A stretch of 64,000 bases of DNA from Acidimicrobiales bacterium (GTDB lineage Bacteria > Actinomycetota > Acidimicrobiia > Acidimicrobiales > MedAcidi-G1), in the NCBI GenBank assembly GCA_014237715.1, contig JAAZZG010000004.1:124001-188000 (forward strand), given 5' to 3'. How positions within the stretch are numbered: position 1 is the stretch's first letter; the number at the start of each line of letters is the position of its first letter. Under the pieces are notes generated by a model that worked only from the letters and a program-made list of their open reading frames with translations, was not told the origin of the DNA and ran no database searches. Made by a program: the position numbers and the translations under genes. Shown here piece after piece: positions 5,411 to 55,644 of the stretch.

Positions 5411-5860
5411 ATGCTTGACGTTGGAACGAAGGCACCAGACTTCTCGGCGCCCGACCAGGACGGCGAGTTGGTAACGCTAGACAGCCTCCGTGGGCACTGG
5501 GTGGCTCTGTGGTGGTACCCAATGGCGTCCACCCCCGGTTGAACGGTCCAGGGCGGGGGGTTCCGTGACCGAACCCCGGAGTTAGAGGAGGCCGGTGTCG
5601 TGGTGCTGGGTGTCAGTTTTGACACCGTCGAGGCGCAGAAGCACTTCGCCGACGACCAGGGGTTTCCCTACCGCCTGCTGGCCGACACCACTAAGGAGGT
5701 TGGGCAGGCCTATGAAGTGGAGGCCGAATACGGCTTGCCGCTGCGGGTTACGTATCTAATCGACCCTGAGGGAACGATTATGCGCGTCTACGACCTTAAG
5801 GGCCAGGACCTGGAGGCCCACGCCGGCATGGTCTTGGACGACGTTCGAACCCTGTCCTGA
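5411..5860 (+). CDS. Selenocysteine-containing peroxiredoxin (Bcp/PrxQ-like), in-frame TGA at 5540-5542
   Basis: Read through one TGA, this is a complete 149-residue thiol peroxidase. MLDVGTKAPDFSAPDQDGEL and VALWWYPMASTPG precede the TGA at codon 44; TVQGGGFRD, VVVLGVSFD and LRVTYLIDPEGTI follow in the same frame. The family's catalytic motif is PxxxTxxC with a TPGC core. Here the peroxidatic Cys is the TGA, giving PMASTPG-U-T. The resolving Cys five residues later is Gly, and the protein has no Cys at all, so the Sec would be the only redox residue. The seven-base-pair hairpin at 5557-5577 fits a bacterial SECIS. The alternative is a nonsense mutation in a dying gene, but the downstream frame and motifs show no decay. 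The enzyme would reduce peroxides in the cytosol. It lies between the aldehyde dehydrogenase and a CoA-transferase on the same strand. Confidence 0.87.
5557..5577 (+). promoter_or_regulatory. Candidate bacterial SECIS hairpin of the peroxiredoxin
   Basis: GGGGTTC (5557-5563) pairs perfectly with GAACCCC (5571-5577) around the 7-base loop CGTGACC. The loop begins 21 bases after the TGA and has a G in its second position. This meets the usual bacterial SECIS description: spacing of roughly 16-37 bases, an upper stem of at least four pairs, and G among the first two loop bases. An overlapping alternative stem, CGGTC (5544-5548) with GACCG (5567-5571), is also possible. Folding was done by eye. 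Confidence 0.6.
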
Positions 5861-8492: not shown

Positions 8493-8831
8493 ATGTCAGA
8501 TGCAGCGGCGAACCTGTACGTCGACTCACAGGAGATGCGGTGGGTGGACGACGTCCTCTGCCGGGACAAGAGCGACCTGTTCTTCGCCCCCTTCGCCGAG
8601 CGTCCCGAGGCCCGGGTCCGGCGCGAGGCCCGAGCAGCGCAACTCTGCGCTGCCTGCCCGGCCATGGAATCCTGCAAGCAGCATGCCCGCGAGAACCGCG
8701 AGCTCGGATTCTGGGGTGGCGAGTCGGAGGCCGAACGGGCCACGGCCGGCTTTGCTCCTACCACACCGATCATCGGTCGACGGCAGGTGGCCGCCCGTCG
8801 AGCCGCCGCGGCACTGGCTGAGGTCGGCTGA
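8493..8831 (+). CDS. WhiB-family iron-sulfur transcriptional regulator
   Basis: A 112-residue Wbl protein, a family essentially restricted to Actinobacteria and their phages. The four cluster ligands are Cys23, Cys52, Cys55 and Cys61 (the last three in CAACPAMESC). The turn motif is GFWGGESEAER, and the tail is Arg/Ala-rich. Wbl proteins carry a 4Fe-4S cluster, usually act with the housekeeping sigma factor, and regulate growth, division or redox responses. The start is supported by AGGGAG ahead of the ATG. It is monocistronic: the next gene is convergent. Which Wbl subclass it belongs to cannot be decided from this window. Confidence 0.96.
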   Translation: MSDAAANLYVDSQEMRWVDDVLCRDKSDLFFAPFAERPEARVRREARAAQLCAACPAMESCKQHARENRELGFWGGESEAERATAGFAPTTPIIGRRQVAARRAAAALAEVG

Positions 8832-46115: not shown

Positions 46116-48338
46116 TCAGCCGAGGGTGACGACCTGGCGGCGCTCCAGACCGTCCAGTGCGTTCTCCTGGACGCGCTGCCACGAGTAGGACCAGAGCATG
46201 TCGCCGATCACCAACGTGCGTTGGATGGGTCGGACGTTGCCGCCGTCGGGCCAGCACACCACGACGTCGCGGTCGGCGGGAAGCGTTTCCGGATCGACCC
46301 CGAACTCCTCGGCCCACCACTTGGATTCCTCGCGTGGCAGGGGCTCACACCAGTGGCCACGCATCGACGTGGGGGCGCCCGGGTCGCAGACCATGACCAC
46401 CGGAACGTCGCCGTCGACTGTCGATACCACGGGGCACGGGGGCACGGGTTCGACCATCTCGGCGTCGCGGTGGTCGATGCGACCCTCTTCGGTGATGCCG
46501 GAGTCAGATACCCGCAGCACGACCGCACCGTGCTCGTCGTTCCGCCAGTCTTCGAATGGCAGGACGGCCCGACCGTCCCACCACAGGAAGGCGTGGTGGT
46601 CCCATTCGGCCCCGCTGTGTCCGCCTCCCGGCGACCAGGTGGCCAGATCGACGGGGGCGTCCAGATCCGACACGTCGAACAGGGTGACCTTGGTGCCGGT
46701 GGTCCGTCCCTCGTCGGTGGCCTCCTGGCCGATGCCCAGGATCCGGTCCGGTCCCACGGGGTGGAGGTAGCCGGAGTAGCCGGTGATCTTCAACTCGCCG
46801 CGCACTTGTGGATCCGTGGGGTCCGACAGGTCGACGGTGTAGAAGGGGTCGGTCTGGCGGAACGTGACCACGTAGGCCACGTCGCCCACGTATCGCACGG
46901 CGAAGATCCGCTCGCCGCGACCCATGTCGCCCACCTGCCCGACTACTTCCAGCGCGCCATCGCGTCGGGCTAGGACCGACACCATCGACTCGGCGTCCTC
47001 GTCGAAGCGCCACGGGCCCCCGGTGGTCGAGGCCACCCGTAGGTGTCCATCGTGTTCGGACATGGAGAACTGGTTCAGCAGGTGGCCGGGGACCTCGCCC
47101 GAGCCGGTGTAGGCGGTCTGCGTCGGACCGGTCACGTCGAACTGGTGGATGGCCGTGTCCCAGTTGCGATCCCACCAGGAACGCTGCTGGTCGTCGGCCA
47201 GCACGTCGGGATCCACCCAGGCGTTGGTCGCCACGTAGAGGTGCTGGTTGCCGGCGTAGACGGTCGACCCCTCGGCAAGCACGGCGGTCGTGGCGGGTCG
47301 GGACAGCGGTTCGACCAGTGGAACGGTGATTACCGACAGGGTCGAGAAGCCGGCGAAGGTGGTGGGGCGGGACACGTTGGTGCACTCGTGCAGCGGCCCG
47401 TCGACCACCGTCCCGTCGGCCGACTCCAGGACGAAGTCGGGCATCCAGTCGGACAGGGTGGTCTCGGCCACCACCTCCCGGTTGAAGCGGCGAGCCCGCT
47501 CCTCGCCGTTGGAGTTCTGCGGGTACACGAAGGGCAGCTCGTCGGGCGGTGTGGAGACGACCACTCGGGCCGCGCCGCCGACCACACGGGTGGACACGTG
47601 GTAGCCCTCGACGGTGAGCACGTTGGCGATCTTCAGGTCGGTCGGATCCGACAGGTCGACCTCGATGAGGCTGGTCAGCGATCGCCATCCCCCCTCGGGC
47701 ACGAGGCTGGAGAAGGCCGGCCGTAGTTCGGGATCCCCTTCGATGTGCGTGTCGGCGATGAGCAGGGCCCGATCGCCGGACAGGAGCATCTGGCGGCTCC
47801 AGTGGCCCTTGATGCGAAGGGAGTCGGTCAACGTCGCAGTACCGCCTGCCACCGACACGTGGTGGAGTCGATCGTCCTCGATGACCAGGATCCGGCGGCC
47901 GTCGGTCTTGATGAGGTCAGGTTCGTCGATGCCCAGTTCCTGAACGTTGGTACCCGAGTAGTCCTGCCCTTCGACGAGAGTCTGGTCGGCGGTCCGGAGG
48001 CTGAACATCGGGGTCCCGCCACCCATCGAGTCTTCGGCCAGGGCCGCCGCCTCCAGCATCACCGGGCCGCCGTACCGGCCCCCATTCAAGCCGTAGGGGC
48101 CGACCCGTTCGTCGGCCTCGGCCTGCAGATGGACCAGCAACTCGTCACACGCCGTGAAGGCGACGAGGCCGGCCGTCAACTCGGTGCCCGACACGTCGAC
48201 CGCCCCGGTGGTCGTGGTGCGACCGCCGGACAGGCCGGGACCTTCGGGGTCCTGTGCACATGCGCCGGCCAGCAGCACCATCATCAAGGGGGCCAGGACG
48301 GCGCCTAGGAGGCGCCCCGCGGGGTGTGGGTGGGTCAC
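46116..48338 (-). CDS. Secreted beta-propeller lipoprotein (PF09826-like)
   Basis: A 740-residue exported protein. A hydrophobic stretch and the lipobox LLAGAC give a lipid-anchored N-terminus. Most of the chain consists of propeller strands, including VEGQDYSGTNVQELGIDEPD, LIKTDGRRILVIEDDRLHHV, VVGQVGDMGRGERIFAVRYV, VGDVAYVVTFRQTDPFYTVD, and GYSGYLHPVGPDRILGIGQE. These are hallmarks of the beta-propeller family often annotated as secreted protein with C-terminal beta-propeller domain. Function is unknown; a periplasmic binding or scaffolding role is likely. GTG 48338 overlaps the leuD stop as GTGA, so it is the better start; an ATG at 48356 also lies in frame. Confidence 0.85.
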   Translation of the reverse strand: MTHPHPAGRLLGAVLAPLMMVLLAGACAQDPEGPGLSGGRTTTTGAVDVSGTELTAGLVAFTACDELLVHLQAEADERVGPYGLNGGRYGGPVMLEAAALAEDSMGGGTPMFSLRTADQTLVEGQDYSGTNVQELGIDEPDLIKTDGRRILVIEDDRLHHVSVAGGTATLTDSLRIKGHWSRQMLLSGDRALLIADTHIEGDPELRPAFSSLVPEGGWRSLTSLIEVDLSDPTDLKIANVLTVEGYHVSTRVVGGAARVVVSTPPDELPFVYPQNSNGEERARRFNREVVAETTLSDWMPDFVLESADGTVVDGPLHECTNVSRPTTFAGFSTLSVITVPLVEPLSRPATTAVLAEGSTVYAGNQHLYVATNAWVDPDVLADDQQRSWWDRNWDTAIHQFDVTGPTQTAYTGSGEVPGHLLNQFSMSEHDGHLRVASTTGGPWRFDEDAESMVSVLARRDGALEVVGQVGDMGRGERIFAVRYVGDVAYVVTFRQTDPFYTVDLSDPTDPQVRGELKITGYSGYLHPVGPDRILGIGQEATDEGRTTGTKVTLFDVSDLDAPVDLATWSPGGGHSGAEWDHHAFLWWDGRAVLPFEDWRNDEHGAVVLRVSDSGITEEGRIDHRDAEMVEPVPPCPVVSTVDGDVPVVMVCDPGAPTSMRGHWCEPLPREESKWWAEEFGVDPETLPADRDVVVCWPDGGNVRPIQRTLVIGDMLWSYSWQRVQENALDGLERRQVVTLG

Positions 48339-48928
48339 GCCGTAGTGGGCAGCCATACCGGGCGAGTGGTTTCGTAGCCCTCGATGTCGGCTTCGTGGCG
48401 CAGAGAGATGCCGATGTCATCGAGTCCCTCGAGGAACCGCTCCCGGGTGGAGGGTTCCAGCGGAAACGAGCACGAGATCCCGGCATCCGGCGCTTCAAGC
48501 GTCAGAGCGGCCACGTCCACGGTGATGACTAGATCGGGGTCGGCCTCCACGGCGTCGAGCAGGGCGGCGCCCACCTCATCGGACACCTGGACCGGCACCA
48601 GGCCGTTCTTGGTGCAGTTGTTGCGGAAGATGTCGGCGAAACGGGGCGAGACCACGGCACCGAATCCGTACTGCTGGATGGCCCACACGGCGTGCTCGCG
48701 TGACGAGCCCGTCCCAAAGTTGGGGCCGGCCACCAGCACGACGGCCTCGGAGTAGCGCTCGTCGTTCAACACGAAGTTCCGGTCGTCGCGCCATTCGGAG
48801 AACAGGCCCTTGTCGAAACCGGTGCGTTCCACCCGCTTGAGCCAGTCGCTGGGGATGATCTGGTCGGTATCCACATCGGAGCGACGCAGTGGCACCCCGG
48901 TACCCGAGACGATCTGTACAGCTTCCAT
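48335..48928 (-). CDS. leuD: 3-isopropylmalate dehydratase small subunit
   Basis: The 197-residue small subunit of isopropylmalate isomerase. The ATG at 48928 follows AAGGGAGC; the frame opens upstream to 49084 but that part is unconserved and overlaps leuC. VPLRRSDVDTDQIIPSDWLK, FVLNDERYSEAVVLVAGPNF, GTGSSREHAVWAIQQYGFGA and VVSPRFADIFRNNCTKNG are standard. With LeuC it converts 2- to 3-isopropylmalate. It starts 25 bases after leuC, and its stop overlaps the beta-propeller lipoprotein start. Confidence 0.95.
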   Translation of the reverse strand: MEAVQIVSGTGVPLRRSDVDTDQIIPSDWLKRVERTGFDKGLFSEWRDDRNFVLNDERYSEAVVLVAGPNFGTGSSREHAVWAIQQYGFGAVVSPRFADIFRNNCTKNGLVPVQVSDEVGAALLDAVEADPDLVITVDVAALTLEAPDAGISCSFPLEPSTRERFLEGLDDIGISLRHEADIEGYETTRPVWLPTTA

Positions 48929-50470: not shown

Positions 50471-51031
50471 TCAGGTGTCGCGGGAACGAGCCCGGTCGAT
50501 CAGGTTGAGGGCATCCTGCACGTCAAGTTCGCTGACGTCGGTCACCAGTGACCCGCCGGCGCTAATGGCCACTGCCGCCGGGTGGCCCAAGATCCCGAAC
50601 CGGAGATGCACCTCGCCGTCGTCGGCGATGTTGGGAAATCCGGTGATGCCCCACTCGGCGACCGTCTCCGTCGCTAAGTCCATCCGGTCAGCGGGAATGG
50701 TGGAGACGCCGATGACGGTGACGCCCGGAATGGTGCTCAGTTCGACGACCGCCGACCTCTCCCTTCGACACGTCACTCACGTGGGTGCCCAGAACCAGAA
50801 CAAGACGTCTTGGCCGGCCACGCTGGTTCCATCGAACGGCTCGCCGCCTACCAGGGTGGCCGTGAACTCCAGCTCGACCGGAATCTCGTACGGCACGGGT
50901 TCTGACTCGGACGCCCGAGACGACTCCGAGACCGCCCCGACATCGGTAGCTGGCGCAGTGTCGTGGGATCCGGATGTGCAGGCGGCAGCGAGGAGCGTCA
51001 GGGCCACGAAGATGCCGACGTCTCGTCTCAT
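50471..51031 (-). CDS. Selenocysteine-containing thioredoxin-fold lipoprotein (DsbE/Mpt53-like), in-frame TGA at 50777-50779
   Basis: Read through one TGA, the 186-residue product is an exported thioredoxin. [18 protein letters not shown] is a lipoprotein signal with acylated Cys18. [24 protein letters not shown], the TGA (codon 85), [15 protein letters not shown] and the cis-Pro loop [11 protein letters not shown] follow in one frame. The family motif is WAxWCxxC. Here it reads WAPT-U-VT-C, so the first active-site Cys is the TGA and the second is Cys88. Close relatives are the secreted disulfide enzymes Mpt53/DsbF and TlpA. A nonsense mutation is possible, but the second half keeps every expected feature. 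The 3' half alone could be read as a GTG-initiated 101-residue frame with no signal peptide, which makes less sense. The gene is monocistronic and divergent from lpd. Confidence 0.87.
50739..50758 (-). promoter_or_regulatory. Candidate bacterial SECIS hairpin of the thioredoxin
   Basis: In the mRNA sense, bases 19-24 after the TGA pair with bases 33-38 (five pairs plus one G-A mismatch) around an 8-base loop, GCGGTCGT, that begins with G. The spacing of 24 bases from the TGA fits the bacterial range. The stem is weaker than that of the peroxiredoxin, and a nearby alternative (GTCGA with TCGGC) exists. Eye-folded only. Confidence 0.4.
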
Positions 51032-51063: not shown

Positions 51064-51153
51064 GTGAGTACGAGGATGTTGATCATCTCCGCGCTCCTGT
51101 GTGGCATGGCTCTCCTGGTGGCCTTCACCGTGCAGGTGGTGGTGGCCCCGTGA
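51064..51153 (+). CDS. 29-residue single-span membrane peptide coupled to lpd
   Basis: A GTG-initiated frame reading VSTRMLIISALLCGMALLVA and then FTVQVVVAP, with one continuous hydrophobic span of about 22 residues. Its stop TGA overlaps the GTG start of lpd as GTGA, the same coupling style used by many genuine pairs in this window. It lies only 32 bases from the divergent selenoprotein start. No family is recognised. It could be a true small membrane protein or a translational leader for lpd. An ATG four codons in is an alternative start. Confidence 0.5.
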   Translation: MSTRMLIISALLCGMALLVAFTVQVVVAP

Positions 51154-52622
51154 CCCGACCCCTGGTTCTGGGCCTCGGTGGGTCGTCGCTGGTTCAGCAC
51201 GACCTCGTTGTCATCGGTGGTGGCCCGGCGGGCTACGCGGCGGCCCTGTACGGCGCAGCTGCCGGCCTCGACGTCGGCCTGGTCGAGGAACACCTGCTGG
51301 GTGGCACCTGCCTTCACGTCGGGTGCATTCCGGCCAAGGAACTGCTGGAGACGGCCTCCGTGCTGCGAACCGTCCGCGACGCGGCCACCTTCGGGGTGGG
51401 CATCCCCGGGGCCGGTGAACACGAACCGGTTGTCGACCTGACGGTGAGCCAGGTCCGTAAGCAGAAGGTCATTGATGGGTTGGCCAAGGGAGTGGCGTCG
51501 CTCCTGAAAGGCCGGGACGTCACCGTCTATGACGGGACCGGTCGATTGAGTGCCGCCCACGTCGTGTCCATCGACCACGGTGAGGGAGACCCCACCCTGG
51601 TGGTGGCTGAGCACATCGTGCTGGCCACCGGGTCGTCGCCCCGCACCATCCCCGGCTTCGAGATCGACGGCACCCTCGTGGTGACCAGTGACGAGCTGCT
51701 GTCCATCGACCGGGTGCCCGCCCGGGTGGCCGTTATCGGCGGCGGGGCCATCGGCTGCGAGTTTGCTTCGATGCTCTCGGACTACGGGTCGGACGTCACG
51801 TTGCTGGAGGCTGCCCCAGAGATCCTGGTGGGATGCGATGCCGACGTGGCCACGGCCATCCGGCGGTCCTTCCGTCGGCGCAAGATCGACGTCCACGTCG
51901 GGACAGCGGTGCACGGCCACCGGCCGACTGACAACGGAGCCACCGTCGTGAGCCACGGGCCGATCGACTCCGACGATGAGTCGGTCGATTTGGAGGTGGA
52001 CTTGGTTGTGGTCTCGGTGGGTCGTCGGCCACGCGGAGACTCCGCTGGCCTGGTCGGCACCAGGGTCGTCGTCGACGAGCGCGGTTTCGTGGAGGTGGAC
52101 GATCGACTTCGCACCGGGGAGCCCGGCGTCTATGCGGTGGGTGACGTGGTGGCCACGCCGCAGCTGGCCCATGTGGGCTTCGCTGAGGGCATGTTCGTGG
52201 TGGGCGACCTGCTGGGCGAATCGCCGAAGCCCATCGACCCGTCTACCGTGCCGTGGTGCATCTACACCCACCCGGAGGTGGCATTCGCTGGGCTGACCGA
52301 AGCCGGGGCGATCGCCGCCGGCCACGACGTGGTGGTGAGCAGCCACCGGTACGTCTCCAACGGCCGGGCCTTGATCGTGGGTGAGACCGAGGGTCTGGTG
52401 AAGGTGGTGGCCGAGAAGGACGCCGACGGCCGGGCGGGACGGATCCTGGGCGTCCACATGGTCGGACCATGGGTCACCGAGCAACTCGGACAGGGCTATC
52501 TGGCCGTCAACTGGGAGGCCACGGTCGACGAGGTGGCGACCTTCATCCAACCCCACCCGACCCTCAGCGAACTCTTCGGCGAGACGGTGCTGTCGCTGAC
52601 CGGCCGCGCCCTTCACGGCTGA
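51150..52622 (+). CDS. lpdA: Dihydrolipoyl dehydrogenase
   Basis: The 490-residue E3 of 2-oxoacid dehydrogenase complexes, passing electrons from dihydrolipoamide to NAD. LVVIGGGPAGYAAALYGAAA binds FAD. The redox disulfide is Cys54-Cys59 in GGTCLHVGCIPAKELLETA. VAVIGGGAIGCEFASMLSDY binds NAD, and VYAVGDVVATPQLAHVGFAE is the second FAD block. WEATVDEVATFIQPHPTLSE holds the C-terminal His-Glu pair. It starts at GTG 51150 in overlap with the small peptide. The E2 gene follows by 18 bases. Confidence 0.95.
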   Translation: MTRPLVLGLGGSSLVQHDLVVIGGGPAGYAAALYGAAAGLDVGLVEEHLLGGTCLHVGCIPAKELLETASVLRTVRDAATFGVGIPGAGEHEPVVDLTVSQVRKQKVIDGLAKGVASLLKGRDVTVYDGTGRLSAAHVVSIDHGEGDPTLVVAEHIVLATGSSPRTIPGFEIDGTLVVTSDELLSIDRVPARVAVIGGGAIGCEFASMLSDYGSDVTLLEAAPEILVGCDADVATAIRRSFRRRKIDVHVGTAVHGHRPTDNGATVVSHGPIDSDDESVDLEVDLVVVSVGRRPRGDSAGLVGTRVVVDERGFVEVDDRLRTGEPGVYAVGDVVATPQLAHVGFAEGMFVVGDLLGESPKPIDPSTVPWCIYTHPEVAFAGLTEAGAIAAGHDVVVSSHRYVSNGRALIVGETEGLVKVVAEKDADGRAGRILGVHMVGPWVTEQLGQGYLAVNWEATVDEVATFIQPHPTLSELFGETVLSLTGRALHG

Positions 52623-52639
52623 TCAGCGGATCGATCGAC

Positions 52640-53950
52640 ATGGCCGACGTCTTCCTTCCGCAACTCGGTGAGACGATCACCGAGGGGACCATTACCCGCT
52701 GGTTCGTGGGCGTCGGTGACTCGGTGGCCGTCGACCAGCCTCTGTACGAGGTTTCCACCGACAAGGTCGACTCGGAGGTGCCGTCCCCGCTGGCTGGTGT
52801 GTTGGCCGAAATCGTGGCCGGTGAGGGAGCGCTTGTCGCCGTCGGAGCGCTCCTCTGCCGTGTCGATCCCGCGGGCTCCACCGCTGCTGCACCCGGGACG
52901 GTTTCGGACGTTGCCACCGGCCCGGCCGCTGCGTCTTCCCCAATGACATCGACCGAACCGGTGTCGTCGTCGGGATCATCGGCAGCCGACATCGGTGGTG
53001 GACTGGGCGGGGGTGTCGCATCGCCTGGGTCGACTGGGGTGGGGGCATCGGGGTCAGCCGGGAGCCGGGGGTCTGGAGGCAGTCGTGGGAGCGGACTGCT
53101 ATTGAGTCCGGTGGTGCGGAGGTTGTTGTCCGAGCATGGGGTGGATCCGGTCCGGGTGACGGGGACGGGGGTGGCCGGGCGCATCACCCGGGCTGACGTG
53201 GAGAGGTTCCTTCGGGACAACCCCGGCCGGGCCGAGCCGTTCGACGGGATCCGTCGGGCCACGGCGCGCCACATGGTGGCGTCCAAGGCCACGTCGCCCC
53301 ATGTGCTCACCGCCATGGAGGTCGACTACACGCCGGTCGACGTCGTCCGGCTGGCCGAAAAGGACGCGTGGCGTGCTGCCGAGGGCACCAGCCTCACCTA
53401 CCTGCCGTTCATCGTGTCGGCCCTGTGTGGAGCCCTGGCCGAATTTCCGCGGCTCAACGCCTCGGTGGGGGACGACGAACTCATCGTGCACGGCACCGTC
53501 AACCTCGCGGTGGCCGTCGATCTGGACTTCGAGGGGTTGGTGGCACCGGTGGTACGGGGTGTGGACGAGCGCTCCATCCAGGACGTGGCACGTTCGATCG
53601 TCGACGTGGCCACCCGGGCCCGTAGCCGGTCGTTGGTCCCTGACGACCTGGCCGGCGGGACGTTCACGGTGACCAACCCCGGGCAGTACGGCACGCTGTT
53701 CCAGTTCCCGATCATCAACCAGCCTCAGGTGGCCATCCTCTCGACGGACGGCATCGCCCGACGTCCCGCGGTGGTCGTCGACGATGACGGGCACGAGTCG
53801 ATCGAAGCCCGATCGATGGGTGTGCTGGCCCTTGCCTGGGACCACCGGGCATTTGACGGGGCCTACGCGGCGGCCTTCCTCCGGTCAATGAAGCAGACCC
53901 TGGAGGGAGCCGACTGGGCCGCTCGATGGGCGGTCGGCGCCGACCGGTGA
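52640..53950 (+). CDS. Dihydrolipoamide acyltransferase (E2) of a 2-oxoacid dehydrogenase
   Basis: A 436-residue E2 with one lipoyl domain (lipoylated Lys42 in VSTDKVDSEVPSPLAG), a Gly/Ser-rich flexible linker near residues 115-150, an E1/E3-binding domain (LLSPVVRRLLSEHGVDPVRV) and a catalytic domain whose C-terminal DHRAFDGAYAAAFL holds the active-site His. It could belong to the 2-oxoglutarate, branched-chain or pyruvate complex. Its place between lpd and lipB-lipA shows a lipoate-dependent complex but not which. E1 is not present here. The ATG at 52640 is 18 bases after lpd; the stop overlaps lipB-lipA. Confidence 0.92.
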   Translation: MADVFLPQLGETITEGTITRWFVGVGDSVAVDQPLYEVSTDKVDSEVPSPLAGVLAEIVAGEGALVAVGALLCRVDPAGSTAAAPGTVSDVATGPAAASSPMTSTEPVSSSGSSAADIGGGLGGGVASPGSTGVGASGSAGSRGSGGSRGSGLLLSPVVRRLLSEHGVDPVRVTGTGVAGRITRADVERFLRDNPGRAEPFDGIRRATARHMVASKATSPHVLTAMEVDYTPVDVVRLAEKDAWRAAEGTSLTYLPFIVSALCGALAEFPRLNASVGDDELIVHGTVNLAVAVDLDFEGLVAPVVRGVDERSIQDVARSIVDVATRARSRSLVPDDLAGGTFTVTNPGQYGTLFQFPIINQPQVAILSTDGIARRPAVVVDDDGHESIEARSMGVLALAWDHRAFDGAYAAAFLRSMKQTLEGADWAARWAVGADR

Positions 53951-55644
53951 CCACCACCAGGCCGTTTCGCGTCCGCTGGCTGGGACGGGTCCGCTACCGC
54001 GATGCGCTGGCCCTTCAACAGCGGATCCATGCCGAGGAACCGACTGCACCCCAGGACCACCTGCTCCTGCTGGAACACCACGCCGTCTACACGCTCGGCC
54101 TGCGGGCCACCCTCGACCACCTTCTGGCTCCGGCGAACGAGATCGACGCCGAGGTGGTGCAGGCCGACCGGGGCGGCGACATCACCTACCACGGACCCGG
54201 CCAACTGGTCGGCTACCCGATGCTCCACCTGGCAGGCAAGCGGGGAGGTGGGATGGCCGACACAGCGGCGTACGTGGCGTCCGTGGAGGAGGTGGTCATA
54301 GCGGTGTGTCGTGATCTGGGCCTGACCGACGTCGGTCGCCTCGACCGCTACCCGGGGGTGTGGGTGGAGCCTGCCGGACCCCGGCCCCGCAAGGTGGCGG
54401 CCATTGGGGTGAAGCTCACCCGGAGTCGGACCATGCACGGCTTCGCCCTGAACGTGGCGCCCGACTTGACCCACTTCGATCGGATGGTGCCGTGTGGAAT
54501 CACCGAGTTTGGGGTCACCTCCCTGGCTGCCGAGGGGATCGACGTGACCATGGCCGAGGTAGTGGACCGGGTGGCAGCCCGGGCGATCGAGCAGTGGGCG
54601 GCGGGCCCGGTCGATCGAGCCGACGTGGCGTGGCGCCGGTTCGCCGGGAAACCCGTAGATGGGGAGGCCGTCAACGGTGAACGAGACGGGGATCTCAGCC
54701 TGTTCAGTCGAGGGGCGGGGCCCGGTGAGGTTCCAGCCCCGGACGACGGACGGGTGGGCCGCAAGCCGTCGTGGATGCGGGTGCCGTTGGATGTCGGCCC
54801 CGGCTACCGACGTCTGAAGTCGTTGATGCGCGACCAGGGACTGACCACGGTATGCGAGGAGGCGGGCTGTCCGAATATCTCCGAGTGCTGGAACGACGGC
54901 ACGGCCACCTTCATGATCAACGGTGAACGTTGCACTCGGGCCTGCGGCTTCTGCCTCGTCGACACCCGAAGGCCCGACGCGCTCGATCCCGACGAGCCGC
55001 GTCGGGTGGCCGAGGCGGTCGTCGAGATGGGGCTGGCCCACGCGGTGGTCACCGCGGTGGCCCGTGACGACCTGGCTGACCACGGGGCCGGCGCCTTCGT
55101 GGCCACCATCGAGGCCATCCGCGGAGCCAGCCCGTCGACGGCCGTAGAGGTCTTGATCCCCGACTGTCGGGGTGACGTAGAGGCGCTCTCGAAAATCTTC
55201 GACGCCCGGCCCGACGTGTTGAACCACAACGTGGAGACCGTGGCTCGCTTGCAGAGGAGGGTCCGTCCGTCAGCGTCGTACGCCCGGAGTCTCTCGGTTC
55301 TGGCCCGGGCCGGAGCCTCCGGTCTGACCACCAAGTCGTCGATCATGGTGGGGATCGGCGAGACCGACGAGGAGGTCGACGGGTGCCTGGCCGACCTAGC
55401 CGCCGTGGGATGCGACATCGTGACCATCGGGCAGTACCTGCGGCCGACCACCACCCACCTGCCCATCGACCGGTGGGTCGAGCCTGACGTATTCGACCGC
55501 TGGAGCGACGTGGGGACGGCGCTGGGCATCGGTCACGTGGAGGCCGGCCCGCTCACCCGGTCCAGCTACCACGCACGGCAGGCGGCCCATGCGACACGGG
55601 CGGCGGGCGGACCGGTTCCCGTGGCCCTGTCAGTCGGACGCTGA
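53947..55644 (+). CDS. lipB-lipA: Fused octanoyltransferase-lipoyl synthase (LipB-LipA)
   Basis: A 565-residue fusion of the two lipoate-making enzymes. Residues 1 to about 235 are LipB: GGDITYHGPGQLVGYPMLHL, KVAAIGVKL with the Lys, and FDRMVPCGI with the acyl-accepting Cys. After a charged linker, residues from about 275 are LipA. The auxiliary cluster is CEEAGCPNISEC, and the radical-SAM cluster CTRACGFC; MVGIGETDEE and GQYLRPTTTHLPIDRWVEPD follow. No stop or frameshift separates the parts. LipB puts octanoate on the E2 and LipA inserts two sulfurs. Starting at GTG 53947 in GTGA overlap with the E2 gene, it makes the cofactor beside the enzyme that uses it. Confidence 0.92.
   Translation: MTTTRPFRVRWLGRVRYRDALALQQRIHAEEPTAPQDHLLLLEHHAVYTLGLRATLDHLLAPANEIDAEVVQADRGGDITYHGPGQLVGYPMLHLAGKRGGGMADTAAYVASVEEVVIAVCRDLGLTDVGRLDRYPGVWVEPAGPRPRKVAAIGVKLTRSRTMHGFALNVAPDLTHFDRMVPCGITEFGVTSLAAEGIDVTMAEVVDRVAARAIEQWAAGPVDRADVAWRRFAGKPVDGEAVNGERDGDLSLFSRGAGPGEVPAPDDGRVGRKPSWMRVPLDVGPGYRRLKSLMRDQGLTTVCEEAGCPNISECWNDGTATFMINGERCTRACGFCLVDTRRPDALDPDEPRRVAEAVVEMGLAHAVVTAVARDDLADHGAGAFVATIEAIRGASPSTAVEVLIPDCRGDVEALSKIFDARPDVLNHNVETVARLQRRVRPSASYARSLSVLARAGASGLTTKSSIMVGIGETDEEVDGCLADLAAVGCDIVTIGQYLRPTTTHLPIDRWVEPDVFDRWSDVGTALGIGHVEAGPLTRSSYHARQAAHATRAAGGPVPVALSVGR

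Follow-up and report, generated by a model that had tools for sequence, protein, structure and literature searches.

The closest described relatives of the protein reported here, in both sequence and fold, are DsbF (PDB 3ios) and DsbE/MPT53 (1lu4) of Mycobacterium tuberculosis. Each is an exported protein of one thioredoxin domain with a beta-hairpin at its N-terminus, an architecture shared by our protein, both have been described as oxidants in vitro that do not reduce insulin, and both are thought to be paired with DsbD or Rv2877c (PMC3853704). Thioredoxin-like selenoproteins with a UxxC active site have also been catalogued: PMC13188914 includes UxxC forms as 'Thiol-disulfide isomerase-like' (cd02966) and 'Redoxin family' (PF08534), and both UxxC and UxxU forms as 'Prx-like thiol:disulfide oxidoreductase' (PF00578), and further UxxC entries appear in PMC9312934, PMC1088965 and PMC2398784. 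The catalogued groups cd02966, PF00578 and PF08534 match our protein in fold class and motif, as judged from their descriptions (PMC13188914), and the main text of that review contains none of the terms 'actinobact', 'actinomyc' or 'lipoprotein'. Two models in NCBIfam come near. NF041057, 'Rcas_1661 family thioredoxin-like (seleno)lipoprotein', matched one of 29 aligned members of our family (E 3.4e-5) and did not match the protein itself at E up to 1, which leaves its cut-off unreached; NF041054, WAxxUGC_long (ResA-like selenoprotein), gave 15.4 bits against a cut-off of 300 bits, and its motif is UGC, whereas our protein has UVTC. None of the seven NCBIfam models listed for the protein reached its own cut-off.

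The 64,000-nucleotide stretch of DNA analysed here (the window) carries a gene for a DsbF/Mpt53-like putative selenocysteine (Sec) lipoprotein on the minus strand at 50471..51031, encoding 186 residues including U85 and ending with the stop TGA at 50473-50471. Read from 51031 to 50471, a single frame contains a lipoprotein signal peptide (50978..51031, with the lipobox Cys as residue 18, codon 50980-50978), the strand FWFWAPT, an in-frame TGA (50777..50779), the residues VTC, and a complete C-terminal half of the thioredoxin fold, in which His150-Pro151 (50579..50584) form the cis-Pro loop. The TGA, assigned to Sec85 from the frame and from relatives, occupies the site of the N-terminal active-site Cys, and the TGT at 50768..50770 encodes Cys88, the resolving Cys of UxxC according to the frame and the aligned members; 98 further residues follow Cys88 before the stop. 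The plus-strand frame across 50471-51031 is interrupted by three stops. Since plain ORF calling reports just a 101-aa fragment after the TGA, a gene of this kind is easily overlooked. The first-pass annotation, made from the letters of the window, had given exactly this interval without naming the strand, and the one-frame succession that it described, from lipoprotein signal to the C-terminal half with its cis-Pro, was found on the minus strand, with residue 151 as the cis-Pro. A relaxed lipobox pattern was present in 25 of the 29 aligned members, the window protein among them, and a stricter Gram-positive pattern in 11, not including the window protein; in two of the 29 rows the N-terminus is missing or contains an ambiguous base.

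Pfam recognised the window protein weakly (AhpC-TSA, E 5.5e-4, under the gathering score), and the best sequence matches in PDB were DsbF 3ios (E 6.8e-16) and MPT53 1lu4 (E 1.8e-14). An AlphaFold2 model, built with Cys replacing Sec and with 33 Cys homologues, had a mean pLDDT of 87.9; from residue 51 onwards, the block means lay at 92-98. Foldseek ranked 3ios (TM 0.90) and 1lu4 (TM 0.81) first, followed by ResA and TlpA, with TM normalised by target length. The Mpt53/DsbF/TlpA-type family proposed in the first-pass annotation is thus borne out by both searches, with DsbF and MPT53 at the top of each. DsbF and MPT53 carry FWxP..C..C, and the window protein has the same arrangement except for Sec in place of the first Cys, so that UxxC keeps the CxxC spacing of the two redox residues. 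Pro151 is present in 29 of 29 aligned members; the residue before it is Gln in DsbF and MPT53 and in 17 of the 29 members, and His in the window protein. Cys-containing redoxins of actinobacteria (Mycolicibacterium, Nonomuraea and others; loci L048-L127) show 27-37% identity to the window protein (33 aligned) and have an invariant FWFWAP.C..C, with Cys exactly at the position of Sec85. The 80 named Cys loci are actinobacterial, going by their record titles; the profile scan behind them wrote Sec as Cys and returned Cys forms only, and the Sec forms were therefore drawn from other genomes.

The machinery for Sec insertion was found in the genome from which the window derives, a 2.33-Mb assembly in 75 contigs estimated to be 92.6% complete. 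It carries selA (328 bits) followed directly by selB (TIGR00475, 268 bits, over the cut-off), whose product contains the SelB winged-helix domain in Pfam, as well as a tRNA-Sec with anticodon TCA and selD (352 bits). The selD gene has an in-frame TGA of its own, within the motif GAGUGCK, and is itself a selenoprotein gene. SelA was detected in 45 of the 48 genomes of the taxonomic family; the three in which it was not found (G010, G011 and G028, 69, 85 and 88% complete) all bear the thioredoxin gene. An orthologue of the window gene was present in 36 of the 48 genomes, with 39-99% identity and exactly one in-frame TGA each, and the Sec form was the only form found. The remaining 12 genomes yielded no orthologue, though SelA was present in all 12; beyond the 36, four genomes gave weak matches only, without a TGA. 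At base level, 30 loci were checked, six other genomes of the 36 lying outside that check, and the TGA stood at WFWxPx-U-xxC in all 30, the window's included, which agrees with the earlier placement of the TGA at the first active-site Cys with the second Cys kept. Alignment of 29 of the proteins showed FWFW.P.U..C and cis-Pro151 among the invariant residues. Nine more loci were examined, and seven had the TGA at the site, four of these from genomes outside the class; GGTC occurred at the same offset (see below) in five of the seven and was absent from two. The loci of the wider order combine best matches with loci picked largely for TGA content, so the relative frequency of Sec and Cys forms in the order is not to be read from them.

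Downstream of the UGA and within the coding sequence, a SECIS-like hairpin lies at 50740..50757 on the minus strand, assigned from covariation and from the contrast between Sec and Cys copies. It has a GGUC loop (50750-50747) 26 nt downstream of the UGA and an upper stem of 5 bp with one G-U pair, and loop, upper stem and spacing correspond to the structural description of bSECIS elements in PMC13188914. Folding of the window sequence alone gave z +0.34 over 50 nt, with another structure preferred over the hairpin, and -5.8 kcal/mol (z -1.25) over 21 nt. With the stem enforced, the best local energy was -7.3 kcal/mol, just short of the limit of -7.5 kcal/mol or lower used as a filter in bSECIS searches (PMC13188914), a limit passed by 54 of 61 Sec copies. 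No Rfam match was obtained for either the window or the gene stretch. As single-sequence folding failed as proof of a SECIS element, a comparative test was applied to 61 Sec sequences (taken from matches with E no higher than 1e-6, with identical stretches collapsed into one) in a gap-free alignment from the TGA to +47, 59 of which are distinct in that region. Five covariation measures were used. In the hairpin, 89% of pair cells were paired, double-change cells numbered 70 against a shuffled mean of 23, and the covariation score was 0.517 against 0.155 for shuffled alignments and higher than in any of the six slid versions; the count of pairs changed on both sides, five of six, did not exceed the shuffles (mean 4.0; 93 of 500 reached five). 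The combination of a 4-bp stem and GGUC was present in 49 of the 61 Sec copies, being absent from the other 12, and in one of 89 Cys homologues. Considered without the stem, a GGUC loop at this offset was shared by 27 of 28 Sec copies from the family and by 31 of 33 from the rest of the order; among Cys copies it was found in one of eight from the order and in 13 of 81 from named actinobacteria.

Taken together, the active-site TGA is very probably a Sec codon. An assembly in 75 contigs, 92.6% complete, is a setting in which a pseudogene or an assembly or read error might turn a Cys codon into TGA, and the first-pass annotation had named such an error, or the absence of selB and tRNA-Sec, as what would overturn its selenoprotein claim. 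The same TGA, however, recurs at all 30 loci across 39-99% identity and was also read in G178 (L155) and G356 (L172), each a single-contig genome, seven of eight pairs have dN/dS values of 0.14-0.43 past the TGA (dS of the eighth is not computable), and the hairpin covaries, so an error or decayed gene is extremely improbable and was rejected on the recurrence of the TGA in independent genomes. Reassignment of TGA to an ordinary amino acid, or readthrough without selenium, would likewise account for a frame that stays open beyond the TGA, but we consider it very improbable: 25 of the 30 loci, with that of the window among them, also use TGA to terminate the gene, the Sec machinery is complete, and the TGA sits exactly where homologues have their catalytic Cys, and reassignment was rejected on these three grounds. 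The earlier selenoprotein claim is supported by the presence of the Sec machinery, by a TGA that is fixed, by the covarying hairpin and by purifying selection past the TGA.

The other selenoprotein gene noted in the window at first pass most likely encodes a PrxQ/BCP-like peroxiredoxin. It lies at 5411-5857 on the plus strand, with a TGA at 5540-5542 at the peroxidatic Cys (STPGUT) and an AhpC-TSA match at E 2e-36; Sec peroxiredoxins are a known family (PMC1088965). Nearby, a 98-nt tRNA-Ile called by ARAGORN at 8712-8809 on the minus strand is likely false. It lies opposite a WhiB gene (8493-8831, plus strand), and Pfam found no match in two other frames of the 8712-8809 region. WhiB is an actinobacterial family, and its presence, together with the named relatives, points to Actinomycetota as the phylum of the window genome.

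Divergent from the Sec gene, the window holds lpd, encoding a dihydrolipoamide dehydrogenase-like protein (51099..52622, plus strand, from Pfam; the exact start is uncertain), a gene for an E2 acyltransferase, and a LipB-LipA gene, together spanning 51099-55644 on the plus strand. The last is one 572-aa ORF at 53926-55644 with a LipB-like ligase and a lipoyl synthase (LIAS_N, radical SAM), an apparent LipB-LipA fusion. In the larger loci L160-L199, a divergent lpd (at least 45% identity) lay within 2.1 kb of 16 of 28 UxxC genes, in eight families of the order, and 7.3 kb away from one more; it neighboured none of ten UxxU genes and one of eight CxxC genes, and this single CxxC gene stands in tandem with a UxxC gene. 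No functional connection is evident between lipoate enzymes of the cytosol and an exported thioredoxin. On the other side, a large lipoprotein-like gene is found at 46116-48356 on the minus strand. It contains a Beta_propel domain (PF09826), its start overlaps the end of leuD, and its homologues share the neighbourhood in some other family genomes.

Sec and Cys copies differ in their association with a membrane partner. A same-strand gene of the DsbD_TM/CcdA type accompanied 66 of the 80 named Cys loci and four of seven Cys loci of the order (70 of 87), whereas no CcdA gene was found within roughly 4.5 kb in any of 34 distinct Sec loci (26 UxxC, 9 UxxU); two CcdA proteins used as tblastn queries likewise had no match there. 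The identity of the CcdA neighbour was checked by Pfam on one representative, and the counts are approximate: gene calls came from a simple script applied to about 4.5 kb, a distance that some contigs do not span in full. The Sec copies examined thus differ from M. tuberculosis DsbF and DsbE, with their presumed partners DsbD or Rv2877c (PMC3853704), in having no DsbD/CcdA neighbour. The window genome has one DsbD_TM/CcdA protein that we could find, encoded next to a gene for a Cys-containing TlpA-like lipoprotein (L200, L201). Two COX1 matches fall on the same contig, one COX1 gene being 6-7 kb away, and CcdA and the TlpA-like lipoprotein perhaps form an oxidase-assembly thiol pathway. VKOR was not found in this 92.6%-complete assembly. 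To our knowledge, an adjacent DsbD/CcdA partner is not a defining feature of DsbF/Mpt53-type exported thioredoxins.

For a quick tree, the active-site residues of 97 domains were masked. It grouped the Sec copies of the family together (support 97) and, separately, the UxxU copies (support 99); the deeper branching order is unsure, as the alignment had 133 columns, 28 of 81 named Cys rows were included, and 37 of the 94 inner branches are open. Genome G252 (L151, L170) carries a Cys copy and a Sec copy in tandem, which fell into one small clade with support 100; the Cys copy is without the GGUC loop, and the pair is a possible case of a Sec/Cys switch. Ten sibling genes in families f18 and f28 of the order (L180-L188) have a TGA at both active-site positions, giving UxxU (e.g. 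WAPWUPFUR; an example is L182, on the minus strand). All ten have one GGUC loop, 26 nt past the first UGA and 17 nt past the second, and they are without the cis-Pro (e.g. QRTYV compared with QPA in UxxC forms). The two Sec residues of UxxU may form a diselenide or bind a metal; the motif has already been catalogued for other families (PMC9312934, PMC13188914).

We propose that the window protein is a Sec-containing thiol-disulfide oxidoreductase that acts outside the membrane, a reading to which we assign a probability of about 0.9 and which leaves the direction of electron transfer aside. Its direct basis is the gene structure, the Sec machinery, the fixed TGA and the covarying hairpin, together with the predicted fold. 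SelB and Sec-tRNA would read the UGA by means of the hairpin just downstream in the coding sequence, and the exported protein, judging from its signal, would be lipid-anchored outside the membrane. There, the Sec85 selenolate would attack a disulfide, or a substrate thiol would attack oxidised Sec85-Cys88, and Cys88 would resolve the intermediate through a Se-S bond, as the fold and known thioredoxin chemistry suggest.

On direction, our analysis tilts somewhat towards oxidation, at slightly better than even odds, because the Cys relatives oxidise in vitro and no CcdA gene lies beside the Sec copies. A reductant would differ from this in direction and partner only: an unlinked transporter of the CcdA type, the one beside the Cys TlpA-like gene, would keep the selenoprotein reduced, and the protein would act on disulfides, sulfoxides or peroxides outside the cytoplasm. 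In favour of such a role, fast reduction is promoted by Sec in the attacking position, one DsbD_TM/CcdA protein was found in the genome, and CcdA stands beside most Cys homologues. Against it, no CcdA gene was found in the roughly 4.5 kb searched at the 34 Sec loci, the CcdA of this genome is already adjoined by a Cys TlpA-like gene, and the studied Cys relatives behave as oxidants in vitro (PMC3853704). We therefore hold the reducing direction to be the less probable one, with a share of around a third. More speculatively, the replacement of the attacking Cys by Sec might free the oxidoreductase from a membrane partner. Peroxide would oxidise Sec85, Cys88 would close a Se-S bond, and disulfides would be made in exported proteins without CcdA or VKOR, in a selenium-driven pathway of aerobic Actinobacteria, and the UxxU sibling clade would have gone further towards a diselenide or metal site; we regard this extended scheme as unlikely.

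The kind of protein is already known, as UxxC thioredoxin-like selenoproteins have been catalogued and NF041057 names a (seleno)lipoprotein family. The description of the protein as rare among lipoproteins at first pass accordingly stands in part: that model already covers (seleno)lipoproteins, and genes of this type with a TGA turn up repeatedly within the order as well as outside the class. Within the literature searched, what looks new is the spread in Actinomycetota together with the differing neighbourhood; no paper on an actinobacterial thioredoxin-like selenolipoprotein was found among the matches listed in open-licence literature, as judged from titles and the beginnings of abstracts. 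SelA and SelB have been reported to co-occur in most bins of sponge symbionts, from various phyla (PMC5649159). According to section 10 of the 2026 review, aerobic bacteria rarely keep selenoproteins (PMC13188914). The window genome contains haem-copper oxidase genes, which suggests that the bacterium is an aerobe, and the rarity in aerobes contrasts with an exported selenoprotein that is found, in its Sec form only, in 36 of the 48 genomes of this family. As Sec and Cys versions differ in their gene neighbourhood, the family offers a natural experiment on what Sec buys a thioredoxin outside the membrane.
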